Origin: Burkholderiaceae bacterium
GTDB taxonomy: Bacteria > Pseudomonadota > Gammaproteobacteria > Burkholderiales > Burkholderiaceae_C
Assembly (NCBI GenBank): GCA_026125795.1
Contig: JAHCKM010000002.1
Span: forward strand, 558,001-622,000
Reading direction: 5' to 3'
Length of the DNA: 64,000 nt
The notes beneath the pieces were generated by a model, which ran no database searches, had not been told where the DNA came from, and saw only the letters and a list, made by a program, of their open reading frames with translations. Shown here piece by piece: positions 2,574 to 28,476 of the stretch. A program made the translations under genes and the position numbers. Positions within the stretch are counted from its first letter, which is position 1, and each line of letters starts with the position of its first letter.

Positions 2574-2619
2574 ATTGTAGGAGCCGTCGCGCGTCATGCC
2601 GCGCCGTGCTCCCTACAAT
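2574..2619. promoter_or_regulatory. Divergent leaderless-type promoters between hydrolase and dnaE
   Basis: Two TACAAT hexamers face away from each other: one on the minus strand at 2579-2574 and one on the plus strand at 2614-2619. Each is followed by exactly seven bases and then an ATG (2566 minus, 2627 plus). This spacing places the transcription start on or next to the initiation codon. No convincing -35 hexamer is visible. The identification is by pattern only. Confidence 0.5.
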
Positions 2620-2626
2620 CGTGCGC

Positions 2627-2707
2627 ATGTGTTCGCCCCCATGCTCGCTTCGCTCGCTGCCCCCCGAGGGGGTGCGTCAACGGCTTCGGGCGGCCGGGCG
2701 CCGCTGA
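2627..2707 (+). CDS. Short leader ORF made of repeat sequence, upstream of dnaE
   Basis: A 26-codon reading frame starts at the ATG placed seven bases after the TACAAT hexamer and stops with TGA two bases before the dnaE ATG. Its body is the dispersed palindromic repeat at 2635-2706, so the peptide (rich in Pro, Arg, Leu and Ser) is probably meaningless in itself. It could couple translation into dnaE through the TGACATGG junction. It may have arisen when the repeat landed between a leaderless promoter and the dnaE start codon. Expression is unproven. Confidence 0.3.
   Translation: MCSPPCSLRSLPPEGVRQRLRAAGRR
2635..2706 (+). repeat. Dispersed palindromic repeat, copy A
   Basis: GC-rich element with a CGCTTCGCTCGC segment, a CCCCCCGAGGGGG palindrome and a CTTCGGGCGGCC segment, ending in GCGCCGCTGA. 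The same ordered blocks recur at 5415-5476 (opposite orientation, inside dnaE), 13753-13831 and 20664-20740. The copies lie directly upstream of start codons in two cases (dnaE, waaC). Confidence 0.75.
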
Positions 2708-2708
2708 C

Positions 2709-5700
2709 ATGGCCTTCGTCCACCTGCGCACGCACACCGAGTATTCGGTGGTCGACGGCACGCTACGCATCGACGACGCGGTGCGCGCGGCGCGCGCCGA
2801 CCATCAGGTGGCGCTGGCGATCACCGACCTCGGCAACCTCTTTGGTGCCGTGAAGTTCTATCGCGCCTGCCGCGCCGCGGGCGTGAAGCCGCTGATCGGC
2901 GTCGATCTGTGGCTCGAGCCCGCCAACCCTGCCGACAAGCAAGCCACGCGCCTGCTGCTGTTGGTGTGCAACCGCACCGGCTACCTCAACCTGTGCCAGT
3001 TGTTGTCGCGTGCATGGACCGGCAACGTGCAGCGCGCGCAGGCCTGGGTCAAGTGGCAGTGGCTGGCCGAGTGCCATGAAGGCTTGATCGCGCTCTCGGG
3101 CGCCGATGGCGGCGCCGTCGGCGCGGCCCTGCTGGCCGGTGATCGCGAGCGTGCGTCGGCGCAGGCGCAGCGCCTGGCGGCGATCTATCCGGGCCGCTTC
3201 TACCTCGAGCTGCAGCGTGCCGGCTTGCCGACCAACGAGGCGCAGGTGCGACTGGCGGTGTCACTGGCCGCCGAGCTCACGCTGCCGGTGGTGGCGACGC
3301 ACCCGGTGCAGTTCGCCGCCACCGAGGAGTTCGATGCGCACGAGGCGCGTGTATGCATTGCCGAAGGCGAGACGCTGGCCAATCCGCGGCGCGTCAAGCG
3401 TTTCACGCGCGAGCAGTATTTCAAGACGCAGGCGCAGATGCAGGCGCTGTTCGCCGACGTGCCGTCGGCGATCGCCAACAGCTTCGCGATCGCGCAGCGC
3501 TGCAATCTGCAGCTCACGCTGGGCGTGCCGCAACTGCCCGACTTTCCCACGCCCGACAGCTCGCCGCTCGACGAGTACTTTCACGGGTTGAGTCACCAGG
3601 GCCTCGAGCGCCGCCTGCTCACGCTGTATCCGCAACAAGCCGAGCGCGACCGGCAACGTGTGCGCTACGTCGAGCGCCTCGAGTACGAGATCGCCACCAT
3701 CCGCAAGATGGGCTTCGCCGGCTACTTCCTGATCGTGGCCGACTTCATCAACTGGGCTCTCGATCACGGTTGCCCGGTCGGCCCGGGGCGCGGCTCGGGC
3801 GCGGGATCGCTGGTCGCCTATTCGCTCGGCATCACCGGCCTCGATCCGATCCAGTACAACCTGCTGTTCGAGCGATTCCTGAACCCCGAGCGCGTGTCGA
3901 TGCCTGACTTCGACATCGACTTCTGCCAGGCCAACCGCGATCGCGTGATCGACTATGTGAAGCAGCGCTACGGCCGCGACGCGGTGAGCCAGATCGCCAC
4001 GTTCGGCACGATGGCAGCCAAGGCCGCGTTGCGCGACGTGGGGCGTGTGCTCGGCATGGGCTATGGCCATGTCGATTCCATCGCCAAGCTGATCCCCGCG
4101 CCGCCGGGCAAGACGGTGACGCTGGCCAAGGTGCCGCAGGATCCCGACCCCGGCGTGATCTACGCGCGCAAGGAAGCGCCCGAGATCAACCAGCGCGAGG
4201 CCGCCGAGGAAGAGGTGGCCGAGCTGCTCGCCTTGGCCACGCAGGTTGAGGGCCTGGTGCGCAACATCGGCATGCACGCCGGCGGTGTGCTGATCGCGCC
4301 GGGCCGCATCACCGACTTCTGTCCGCTGTACCAGCAGCCCGGCAGCGATTCGGCGGTGAGCCAGTACGACAAGGACGACGTCGAGGCGATCGGCCTGGTG
4401 AAGTTCGACTTCCTCGGCCTGGCGACGCTGACGATCCTGGAACTGGCCAAGGACTTCATCGTCGCGCGGCATCCGGAGCATGCCGGCTTCAGCTTCGAGC
4501 GCGTGCCGTTCGACGACCCGGCCGTGTACCGGCTGTTTTCCAACGGCCAGACCGAAGCCGTGTTCCAGTTCGAATCGCGCGGCATGATCGGCATGCTGCG
4601 CGATGCCAAGCCCTCCAAGCTCGAGGATTTGATCGCGCTGAACGCGCTGTACCGGCCCGGGCCGATGGACAGCATCCCGTCATTCTGCGCGCGCAAACAC
4701 GGCCGCGAGCCGATCACCTACCCGCATCCGCTGCTCGAGGATCTGCTGCGCGACACCTACGGCGTCATCGTGTACCAGGAGCACGTGATGCAGGGCGCGC
4801 AGATCCTGGCCGGCTTCTCGCTCGGCGCGGCCGATCTGCTGCGCCGTGCCATGGGCAAGAAAAAGCCGGAAGAGATGGCCAAGCAGCGCGAGCTGTTCCG
4901 CGCCGGCGCGGCCCGAAACGGCGTCGATCAGCCCAAGGCCGACGAAGTGTTCGACCTGATGGAGAAGTTTGCCGGCTACGGGTTCAACAAGAGCCACGCC
5001 GCCGCTTACGTGGTGCTCGCGTACCAGACGGCTTGGCTCAAGGTGCACTTCCCGGCTGAGTTCTACGCCGCCAACATGAGCGTGGAAATCGACAACACCG
5101 ACAAGCTCAAGGTGCTGATCGACGACGCCAAGCAGTTCAACGTGGAATTCGAGCCGCCCGACGTCAACCGCGGCACCTACCGCTTCGAGCCGGTCGAGAC
5201 CAAACGCGTGCGCTACGGGCTCGGCGCCGTCAAGGGCACGGGGCAGGGTGCGATCGAGGCCATCGTCGCGGCCCGTGAGGACGGCGGGGCGTTCCGCAGC
5301 CTGTTCGACTTCTGCGCGCGCGTCGATCGCCAGCGCGTCAACAAGCGCGCGGTCGAGGCGCTGGTCAAGGCCGGTGCGTTCGATGCGCTGCATGCGGAGC
5401 GTGCGCCGGCCGGCGCCGGGCCGTCCCAAGCGGGCCGAGCCCCCTCGGGGGGCAGCGCCGAAGGCGCGTGGGGGCGGGCATCTCTTCTGGCCAGCATCGG
5501 CCTGGCGTTCGAGTGGGCCGACACGCAGGAGGTCAACCAGTCGCAAGGCGGCCTGTTCGACTTTGGCGACTCGCACGCCGCGTCGACCCACGAGCCGGCG
5601 CTGGTGGCGGCCGAGCCATTCGGTGTGCGCGAACGGCTGTCGTTCGAGAAGGCGGCGCTCGGCTTCTACTACTCGGGCCATCTCTTCGAGCAGTTCGCGG

Positions 5701-6275
5701 CCGAGGTGCGCCGCATCGCCAAGCGCGCGATCGCCGATCTGGTCGATTCACGCGAGCCGGTGCTGCTGGCCGGCGTGGTGAGCGACCTGCGGTTGGTCAA
5801 CAGCCAGCGCGGCCGCGTCGCCATCTTCAAGCTCGACGACATGAGCGAGCGCATCGAGGCGGTGGTGAACGAGGAACTGTTGGACTCCACGCGCGACCTG
5901 CTGCGCGAAGACGAGTTGCTCGTCGTGCAGGGCCGTGCGCAGCCCGATCGTTTCTCCGGCGGCTTGCGCTTGAATGTGTCCCAGGTGTGGGATCTGGCCG
6001 GGGCGCGCGCGCGCTTCGGCCGTTATCTGGAGGTGAGCGTCAACGGCACCGTACCGCCGCTGCACGAGCTGCTGCGCCAGTGGCCGGTGCGCCGCGTGGC
6101 GAGCGAGCAGGGCAGCACGCTGCTCGGCTTGCCGGTGCGCCTGCGCATCGAGCGCACCGACGCAGAGCTGAAGCTCGATCTCGGCGAAGACGGCCGCTTC
6201 TGGCCCAGCGACGATGCGCTGCAGCGCTGGAAAGCGGTGGCCCATCGCGGCGAAGCCGCGATCGTGTACGAGTAG
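2709..6275 (+). CDS. dnaE: DNA polymerase III subunit alpha
   Basis: 1,188 residues, close to the usual beta-proteobacterial DnaE1. It is the replicative polymerase that copies the chromosome within the polymerase III holoenzyme. The order is an N-terminal PHP domain (FVHLRTHTEYSVVDGTL, residues 3-19), the C-family polymerase core with GPGRGSGAGSLVAY and the catalytic carboxylates of PDFDIDF near residue 400, helix-hairpin-helix motifs, then a C-terminal OB-fold (about 985-1080). The reading frame stays open far upstream, but homology begins at this ATG. Oddly, about 23 residues near 899-922 (Ala/Gly/Pro-rich) are encoded by a copy of the dispersed repeat, inserted between KAGAFDALHAER and ASLLASIG, normally contiguous. 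Confidence 0.96.
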   Translation: MAFVHLRTHTEYSVVDGTLRIDDAVRAARADHQVALAITDLGNLFGAVKFYRACRAAGVKPLIGVDLWLEPANPADKQATRLLLLVCNRTGYLNLCQLLSRAWTGNVQRAQAWVKWQWLAECHEGLIALSGADGGAVGAALLAGDRERASAQAQRLAAIYPGRFYLELQRAGLPTNEAQVRLAVSLAAELTLPVVATHPVQFAATEEFDAHEARVCIAEGETLANPRRVKRFTREQYFKTQAQMQALFADVPSAIANSFAIAQRCNLQLTLGVPQLPDFPTPDSSPLDEYFHGLSHQGLERRLLTLYPQQAERDRQRVRYVERLEYEIATIRKMGFAGYFLIVADFINWALDHGCPVGPGRGSGAGSLVAYSLGITGLDPIQYNLLFERFLNPERVSMPDFDIDFCQANRDRVIDYVKQRYGRDAVSQIATFGTMAAKAALRDVGRVLGMGYGHVDSIAKLIPAPPGKTVTLAKVPQDPDPGVIYARKEAPEINQREAAEEEVAELLALATQVEGLVRNIGMHAGGVLIAPGRITDFCPLYQQPGSDSAVSQYDKDDVEAIGLVKFDFLGLATLTILELAKDFIVARHPEHAGFSFERVPFDDPAVYRLFSNGQTEAVFQFESRGMIGMLRDAKPSKLEDLIALNALYRPGPMDSIPSFCARKHGREPITYPHPLLEDLLRDTYGVIVYQEHVMQGAQILAGFSLGAADLLRRAMGKKKPEEMAKQRELFRAGAARNGVDQPKADEVFDLMEKFAGYGFNKSHAAAYVVLAYQTAWLKVHFPAEFYAANMSVEIDNTDKLKVLIDDAKQFNVEFEPPDVNRGTYRFEPVETKRVRYGLGAVKGTGQGAIEAIVAAREDGGAFRSLFDFCARVDRQRVNKRAVEALVKAGAFDALHAERAPAGAGPSQAGRAPSGGSAEGAWGRASLLASIGLAFEWADTQEVNQSQGGLFDFGDSHAASTHEPALVAAEPFGVRERLSFEKAALGFYYSGHLFEQFAAEVRRIAKRAIADLVDSREPVLLAGVVSDLRLVNSQRGRVAIFKLDDMSERIEAVVNEELLDSTRDLLREDELLVVQGRAQPDRFSGGLRLNVSQVWDLAGARARFGRYLEVSVNGTVPPLHELLRQWPVRRVASEQGSTLLGLPVRLRIERTDAELKLDLGEDGRFWPSDDALQRWKAVAHRGEAAIVYE
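5415..5476 (-). repeat. Dispersed palindromic repeat, copy B, inside dnaE
   Basis: In inverted orientation relative to copy A, this segment carries GGGCCGTCCCAAGC, the AGCCCCCTCGGGGGGC palindrome and GCGCCGAAGGCGCG. It aligns best to the reverse complement of copy C (13753-13831). It lies wholly inside the dnaE coding sequence, preserves the reading frame and contains no stop codon. Confidence 0.75.
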
Positions 6276-28103: not shown

Positions 28104-28476
28104 GGGGCCGACCTGGCTTCGACGTGGGTGCGGAGTCGGTTCAGGGCATGCCGAGCGCCAGATCAGCTCGTTAATCCAGCTGGAACAAAGTAACTGCGAA
28201 CGACGAACGTTTCGCCCTCGCCGCCTAAAAACCGGTGAGCCTCGCAACGGTTGGCCGATGGGCCGGGCTTGAGCCGCAAGGCAAGGGCTGCGAGGTTATT
28301 CACATCGGCTGGCGGTGCGCCGGGTCACTCGGCGCATCGCGAGATCCAGTGACTGGCGGATCCGGTAGCGTGCTGCTGCGCGACCGGGGCCGCGAGACTC
28401 AAACCAGACAGCTACGCATGTAGAACTGGCCGGTGATGGCTTGCGGACGGGGGTTCGATTCCCCCCGGCTCCACCA
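28104..28476 (+). ncRNA. ssrA: Transfer-messenger RNA (tmRNA)
   Basis: 373 bases. tmRNA with SmpB rescues stalled ribosomes and tags the unfinished protein for proteolysis. The 5' end GGGGCCGACCTGGCTTCGAC and the 3' end, with the T-loop GGTTCGATTCC and encoded CCA (28474-28476), form the tRNA-like part. The tag frame 28196-28228 reads ANDERFALAA then TAA, the beta-proteobacterial tag. The body between holds the usual pseudoknots. The gene is one-piece, not permuted. Its 3' end is a common integration site for genomic islands, and an accessory region follows. Confidence 0.98.

Follow-up and report, generated by a model that had tools for sequence, protein, structure and literature searches.

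A probable BRE-type repeat in frame within dnaE of a Burkholderiaceae bacterium, and short leader ORFs formed by related copies at gene starts

Introduction

How does the gene of a replicative DNA polymerase come to hold a segment that resembles a dispersed repeat, and how can gene and repeat coexist? The question is raised by dnaE in a 64,000-nt stretch of a Burkholderiaceae genome (assembly GCA_026125795.1, contig JAHCKM010000002.1, positions 558,001 to 622,000; referred to as the window), where an initial annotation made from the sequence had placed a palindromic repeat, in frame, within the coding sequence. The best-known cases of selfish repeats within proteins come from Rickettsia and related bacteria, whose palindromic elements (RPE) were reportedly described by Ogata and colleagues in 2000. 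The observations presented below are probably best explained jointly: the dnaE segment would be an in-frame copy of a mobile repeat of the BRE family (Beta-proteobacterial repeat element), inserted long ago, and would belong to a family whose copies are compatible with translation and form leader ORFs at gene starts.

Results and Discussion

A repeat copy inside dnaE

The gene and the insert have the following coordinates in the window.

2709..6275, plus strand: dnaE, DNA polymerase III alpha subunit, 1188 aa; NCBIfam equivalog PRK05673.1, 1381.5 bits (cut-off 1002)
5403..5477, plus strand: in-frame insert, residues 899-923 (APAGAGPSQAGRAPSGGSAEGAWGR), probable BRE-type copy; covariance model match 5402-5483, 62.4 bits

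From its start codon (ATG at 2709) to its stop codon (6273-6275) dnaE is open, in agreement with the original proposal of an insertion in frame and without a stop, and it is assigned to PRK05673.1 as an equivalog. The proposal that the flanking protein sequence is normally continuous was also borne out, because E. coli polymerase III alpha can be aligned up to the insert and again beyond it, with nothing between: the query passes from residue 899 to 923 where the template passes from 896 to 895, and no template residue stands opposite DnaE residues 900-922. The insert measures 75 nt, with boundaries that are ambiguous by a few nucleotides; the site had been located correctly, and its extent (formerly 5415..5476, residues 899-922 or so) needed a small shift.

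When the dnaE segment was compared with its own 6.57-Mb genome, 41 nucleotide matches including itself were obtained (E ≤ 0.001), the best of the others with 89% identity over about 70 nt (E = 3.6e-17). This similarity to other genomic places is far beyond chance, and together with the covariance model match it identifies the segment as a copy of a dispersed repeat, as had been suspected. Folded as a single strand, the dnaE copy gains no stability over shuffled sequences (z 0.80).

Structure, distribution and identity of the element

The initial annotation had listed three further copies, near 2635, 13753 and 20664, as lying between genes. All three are real, but the first is not simply intergenic, since it forms a leader ORF of dnaE (see below).

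2627..2712, minus strand: element copy directly before dnaE, 86.7 bits
13748..13836, minus strand: element copy, 49.7 bits
20662..20745, plus strand: element copy, 70.5 bits

In an alignment of 40 copies from this genome, the element consistently shows three successive hairpins. The first is a stem whose conserved loop reads approximately GGGCCGC, the second a tight one formed by CCCCCTCGGGGG, and the third, which varies, precedes GTGGGGGC. Covariation is seen in the stems. Pairing occurs in 94.2% of cells, compared with 79.2% for shuffles and with 38-50% when the partners were slid, and 114 cells are changed on both sides (29.4 in shuffles), although the tested structure has an advantage here, having been deduced from this very alignment; in helix 1, both-side changes affect seven of the eight pairs. 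With a covariance model of 85 positions, 150 candidates were scored and at least 149 copies recognized in the genome, 134 of 149 matches being 75-91 nt long (range 70-113). The mean GC content of the 40 aligned copies is 76.5% (67.4-84.1%). At one place (G000:C4:414185-414427) three copies stand in tandem, like the BRE arrays of Bordetella. A search of the 64-kb window with Rfam at gathering scores returned a tmRNA gene alone (28104-28476, RF00023, 189.2 bits) and no match to the element.

Under stricter filters the element was found in 30 of 60 genomes, namely in 29 of 36 from the same family, this one included, and in just one of the 24 that represent the order's other families. An exact pattern search in named genomes returned at least 117 stretches, mostly under Burkholderiales names, and matches at E ≤ 0.001 numbered 32 in Bordetella ansorpii, 92 in an Achromobacter sp. 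and 84 in Polaromonas eurypsychrophila. One stretch (L135) belongs to a contig that carries the label of a Desulfobulbus MAG but may be a misbinned betaproteobacterial contig.

The element is very probably BRE. The name is suggested by agreement in length, tandem arrays, host range and the lexA locus, a match to the published description rather than letter for letter. In the accessible sections of the original paper (Hot et al., 2011; PMC3110155), BRE is reported from Bordetella and Comamonadaceae, and from Betaproteobacteria such as Bordetella and Polaromonas, as a GC-rich repeat some 75-91 bp long that also occurs as shorter, partial copies and in tandem arrays. It is described there as mostly intergenic, with some copies wholly within coding sequences and some that overlap ORF ends by a few bases. 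At locus 3 of B. pertussis, two BRE repeats lie between BP1793 and lexA (PMC3110155). A comparable arrangement occurs in the genus of Bordetella ansorpii: in G329 two tandem copies (C1:1817069-1817243) adjoin the 3' end of lexA, which lies on the other strand and whose match ends 24 nt away from them, the only lexA among 20 stretches around copies from five genomes of that genus. The mean GC content here exceeds that of BRE in Bordetella, a different genome (63.7-78.9%, mean 69.0%; PMC3110155), and copies are more numerous here than in the accessible account of Hot et al. (PMC3110155). Those sections contain no in-frame analysis of proteins that carry copies, no dnaE case and no leader ORF.

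Two other repeat families resemble the element in habit. According to the accessible text of two papers, RPE are palindromic repeats that reside in frame within conserved proteins, at solvent-exposed places (PMC3767692, PMC2229807), and the R. japonica polymerase III alpha subunit is recorded as a host of RPE-4 (PMC3767692), a direct precedent for the dnaE copy. RPE hosts belong to another bacterial class, and the likeness considered here is that of in-frame residence in conserved protein genes, in this genome dnaE and eight others. The dnaE insertion itself is another case of the in-frame palindromic repeats that are known from Rickettsia, including its DnaE. For the GTAG/CGTC REPs, the accessible part of Di Nocera et al. 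(2013; PMC3733652) describes intragenic hairpin repeats, including those in replication and repair genes and in R. conorii DnaE, and counts the Bordetella family with those REP-like repeats that lack conserved motifs at their termini. In contrast to the GTAG/CGTC REPs, the element has no such tag in the consensus of 40 copies (inspected by eye), and a link to RAYT was not found. Nor was a terminal inverted repeat of the MITE type seen in this consensus.

Copies inside other genes

Genomic context was available for 144 of the 149 copies and yielded 41 candidate ORFs over 32 copies, of which 40 over 31 copies were scanned with Pfam; a search of this kind, through open frames, would miss copies that break the gene. 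A codon-usage frame classifier was dropped because it missed dnaE itself, and in its place the assignment relied on protein families and solved structures. Besides dnaE, the scan identified eight more in-frame copies with domains around or across the element, so that the expectation of further in-gene copies in this genome was confirmed. The affected proteins are as follows.

AraC/cupin regulator: judged in-gene by its place between two domains
Salicylate 5-hydroxylase (S5H) alpha: 28 extra residues relative to solved homologues
SOGP-type phosphorylase: 25 extra residues
DUF1223 protein: extra residues partly shown against solved homologues
Histidine ammonia-lyase (HAL): 51 extra residues
Serine dehydratase: 25 extra residues
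TPP enzyme: extra residues at the element more weakly shown
HerA-like helicase: 25 extra residues

The insert peptides derive from two sense frames or from the antisense strand, and in-gene copies would accordingly be read through without a stop in any of these three ways. HAL appears to record turnover of the element at one site. The insert there (HAL loci L410, L411, L412 and L415) measures 159 nt in this genome and in G022, a member of another genus, 84 nt in G005 and 45 nt in G032, always in frame, in four genomes of three genera. Five other genomes lack it, nine of 15 loci having been read.

In the named genomes, 25 ORFs from 22 of the at least 117 loci were scanned with Pfam, and the element lies clearly inside a known protein in 11 loci and less clearly in one (L201). 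The proteins include a chorismate-binding enzyme of Achromobacter, with 26 extra residues relative to a solved homologue, MurD of a Xylophilus MAG, where the gap against a solved homologue is longer and the element forms part of it, Hsp33, RecQ at two Variovorax loci, kynureninase, an AAA protein, an alpha/beta hydrolase, and S5H of three Hydrogenophaga genomes, which share the site. In a Hydrogenophaga MAG (L217:2459-3916, plus strand), the S5H ORF holds one element and has a C-terminal tail (GSLPPEGA...) that resembles a second in antisense. A radical-SAM ORF (L264) was dropped from the in-gene set, because its copy is a leader copy before the gene; an FAA-hydrolase ORF (L284) that had likewise looked in-gene at first is a doubtful case, and ORFs around five further weak matches (L425, L426, L431, L432 and L433) had no Pfam match.

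For S5H, RecQ and HAL, third codon positions are better kept in the insert than in the gene, significantly (p < 0.05) in five of ten pairs and not significantly in the other five. Examples are 93% in the insert and 70% in the gene between this genome and L152, 100% and 78% in RecQ, and 85% and 61% between this genome and G022.

Age and history of the dnaE insertion

Across 52 genomes, the insert was recognized by the spacing between GAFD and a QGGLF-type motif, which in this genome is located as follows.

5544..5558, plus strand: QGGLF, expected beta-clamp binding motif; alignment columns 402-406, with little or no variation among 30 DnaE sequences

The spacing is 28-32 residues in 48 genomes and 50-53 residues in four. 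The four carriers, this genome, G001, G004 and G005, belong to one genus and have 22-25 extra residues each, the insert at the dnaE site measuring 22-24 residues in the three congeners; the dnaE genes of G002 and G003, of the same genus, are without it. The DnaE proteins of the four carriers are 83-89% identical, and in a tree of DnaE from which the insert had been left out these species group as a single clade (local support 1.0) beside G002 and G003 (0.993); the outgroup loci L048 and L061, read on the wrong strand, were placed apart. Since the carriers form one clade, the insertion would predate their split and be older than initially thought. The expectation that it would be limited to the strain or a few relatives held for the few relatives; its presence in three of five congeners, all of the same clade, means that it is neither strain-specific nor fresh.

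The congener inserts have diverged to different degrees. Alone among them, that of G001 aligns with the copy here over the full insert length (79% over 67 nt); in G004 the last 27 nt align (89%), and G005 shows almost no similarity. As elements, the inserts of G001 and G005 scored -1.1 and -3.0 bits with nhmmer and that of G004 was not among the matches listed, and the covariance model reached at most 14.4 bits anywhere in the dnaE loci of the five congeners. Within this set, only the dnaE copy of this genome still scores as the element, and a single ancestral insertion is therefore inferred from place, length and partial similarity. An element of about 80 bp with three hairpins and of the BRE family, or its forerunner, would thus have entered dnaE at this site before the four species split.

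The low scores of the congener inserts could also mean that the segment is a native variable loop of the genus whose likeness to the repeat is convergent GC-rich sequence. We find this scarcely credible, given that the dnaE copy contains the whole conserved order of hairpins and loops, is 87-89% identical to several genomic copies over about 70 nt, and has no counterpart in 48 of the 52 genomes.

Insertion before the species split leaves two possible histories for the copy found here, which was either well kept or refreshed from other copies. Between the four species, third positions in the dnaE insert agree in 32-59%, compared with 70-79% in the rest of the gene, and the insert is worse conserved in all six pairs, significantly in four. 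Drift faster than that of the gene, next to a nearly intact copy in this genome, would be expected if the old insert had decayed in all lineages and was renewed here through re-insertion or gene conversion. This genome also has the most copies counted in the genus (at least 75, compared with 15-31, some of those genomes being incomplete), and homogenization would likewise keep third positions in S5H, RecQ and HAL inserts better than in the genes, as seen in five of ten pairs. The lack of a significant difference in the other five pairs speaks against such renewal, as does the GCCGAAGGCGC part, which this genome has in common with G001 and G004 and which fits plain descent. We hold renewal to be possible but on the doubtful side; it is compatible with the old in-frame insertion proposed here except for the history of the dnaE copy.

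The loop in the polymerase protein

The C-terminal 644 residues of DnaE were modelled with AlphaFold (30 sequences, mean pLDDT 81.9). In this model the insert corresponds to model residues 354-375, which have pLDDT values below 50 and no secondary structure. It is placed between the helix-hairpin-helix domain (Pfam HHH_6) and QGGLF, which we take to be the beta-clamp binding motif by its position in DnaE. The model thus depicts a disordered, flexible loop at the site for which an extra loop had been predicted, and the insertion would add 25 such residues there. The polymerase presumably works with its loop, because the gene has been kept open and intact, and it would therefore seem to tolerate the insertion.

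A loop so placed might also be adaptive and alter the behaviour of the polymerase, for example in clamp binding or mutation rate. A comparable effect has been speculated upon for REPs in repair genes (PMC3733652, accessible part), and RecQ at the two Variovorax loci and the HerA-like protein of this genome carry copies as well. However, the identified proteins with copies lie mostly outside replication and repair, and at the protein level the dnaE insert drifts faster than the gene (23-46% versus 83-89% identity), which makes an adaptive role highly improbable.

Leader ORFs at gene starts

In the test for leaders, which used 112 copies with the motif GGCCG[CT], 60 copies stand in the opposite orientation 4-31 nt before an ORF that looks coding; gene starts were those of ORFs of at least 80 codons with a positive codon score, which include some artefacts and are not annotations. 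An ATG lies 0-12 nt before the CCCCCA at the far end of the element in 31 of these 60; one of them is the internal copy of dnaE itself, which was counted because of an antisense ORF. For 21 of these 31 copies, the ORF that begins there ends within -4 to +4 of the start of the next ORF, compared with five of 62 when the same starts were shifted by one or two bases (p = 3.8e-9). The 21 leader ORFs have 24-35 codons, 12 of them 25 or 26, and represent only 21 of the 60 start-side copies. In the named genomes (from at least 117 stretches listed), 57 of 141 copies precede ORFs and 49 of these have the ATG; 35 of the 49 form a full leader, compared with four of 98 controls (p = 3.9e-18), although several of these loci come from one Burkholderia strain and are therefore not all independent. 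Overlaps of the ATGA type are the commonest stop/start arrangement there (24).

Many copies at gene starts would thus provide a short leader ORF that runs from an ATG to the start codon of the gene, as TGACATG, ATGA or TGATG. With the leader stop placed at the start codon of the gene, ribosomes could re-initiate there. A Shine-Dalgarno-like motif precedes the leader ATG in 15 of 35 named leaders (six of 35 controls), and in this genome no excess was detected (five of 21, compared with six of 21). Such a motif also stands inside the element before the gene's own ATG, in 23 of 35 named leaders and three of 21 here, so that direct initiation would be possible instead of re-initiation. Either route could serve the genes that bear leaders.

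The copy before dnaE is an instructive example, with the following predicted features.

2614..2619, plus strand: TACAAT, -10-like box, putative promoter element, 7 nt before the leader ATG
2627..2707, plus strand: predicted leader ORF of 26 codons made by the copy before dnaE; stop codon TGA at 2705-2707, one base before the dnaE ATG

The leader begins MCSPPCSLRSLPPEGVRQRLRAAGRR and is followed by TGA, one base and the dnaE ATG. Five of the six members of the genus that were read have TACAAT and G003 has TAGAAT, 6-7 nt before the first ATG. In G002, G003 and G005 this ATG is the dnaE start itself, and there is no upstream insert. A 33-codon ORF that ends TGAAATG precedes dnaE in G001, and in the sister G004 the leader stops early, short of the dnaE ATG. 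The copy before dnaE thus appears to fill the space between the -10-like box and the start codon as a leader ORF, and the locus suggests how the arrangement can arise. In this genome dnaE carries one copy of each kind, one in the gene and one that forms a leader at its start.

A literature search over titles and the beginnings of abstracts found no published description of the leader arrangement. This habit is the part that was not found in earlier literature and would be new beside the known traits of BRE and RPE.

Mobility

The mobility of the element is inferred from filled and empty orthologous sites. A CAT trinucleotide stands near both ends of many copies, at left offset -16 in 19 of 112 and, on the right side, no more than 12 nt away in 43 of 68, and these ATG or CAT trinucleotides suggest a target site and a short duplication. 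The same pattern bears on the origin of the leaders, which may be neither selected nor used but by-products of insertion next to ATG or CAT and of shared descent. CAT close to both ends is what one would expect from a target preference, the frame of a copy is inherited, and the element often supplies the Shine-Dalgarno-like motif before the gene ATG (23 of 35 named leaders). However, leaders in different core frames (MLTPTLTSFAAPRGG, MKRPPRSLRSLPPEG and MAPTPAFARCPPR types) all end at the gene start, which is not readily explained in this way. We give a by-product origin appreciable weight, though less than even.

No mobilizing enzyme was found in a search that covered Y1_Tnp. The element might be a REP that depends on a RAYT (Y1 transposase) for its movement, as has been suggested for GTAG REPs; consistent with this, Y1_Tnp matches are common in the family and occur in 66 of 100 genomes searched, often as single ones. 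Yet none occurred in the six genomes of this genus (G000-G005), all of which have the element, four of the six being less than 92% complete. The element also occurs without Y1_Tnp in G016, G022 and G025, and the reverse holds for G013, G023, G027, G031 and G034. None of 20 RAYT loci has the element within about 1.5 kb; of the genomes of these loci 13 were searched for it, and 12 carry it and one is without. With the GTAG or CGTC tag absent from the consensus as well, RAYT was rejected as a candidate mobilizer, and we regard its involvement as very unlikely.

Conclusions

The element, in all probability BRE, may be a mobile, translation-proof cassette that targets ATG (CAT). Where it enters a start codon, it would leave the old ATG as the start of a leader of about 24-28 codons, with a stop codon that overlaps or touches the duplicated start, and the host gene would still be expressed through re-initiation or a site inside the element; within genes it would be read through in frame. 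We consider the chances of this proposal to be evenly balanced. The family may persist because its copies are compatible with translation. The same habit of residence within proteins that is known from Rickettsia would then be open to study in large-genome Burkholderiales, where DnaE, HAL and a MurD offer a tractable system. The leader ORF would be a concrete way for a mobile repeat to occupy a start codon without silencing the gene, and the arrangement predicts that these bacteria contain many unannotated, translated leaders of about 26 codons.
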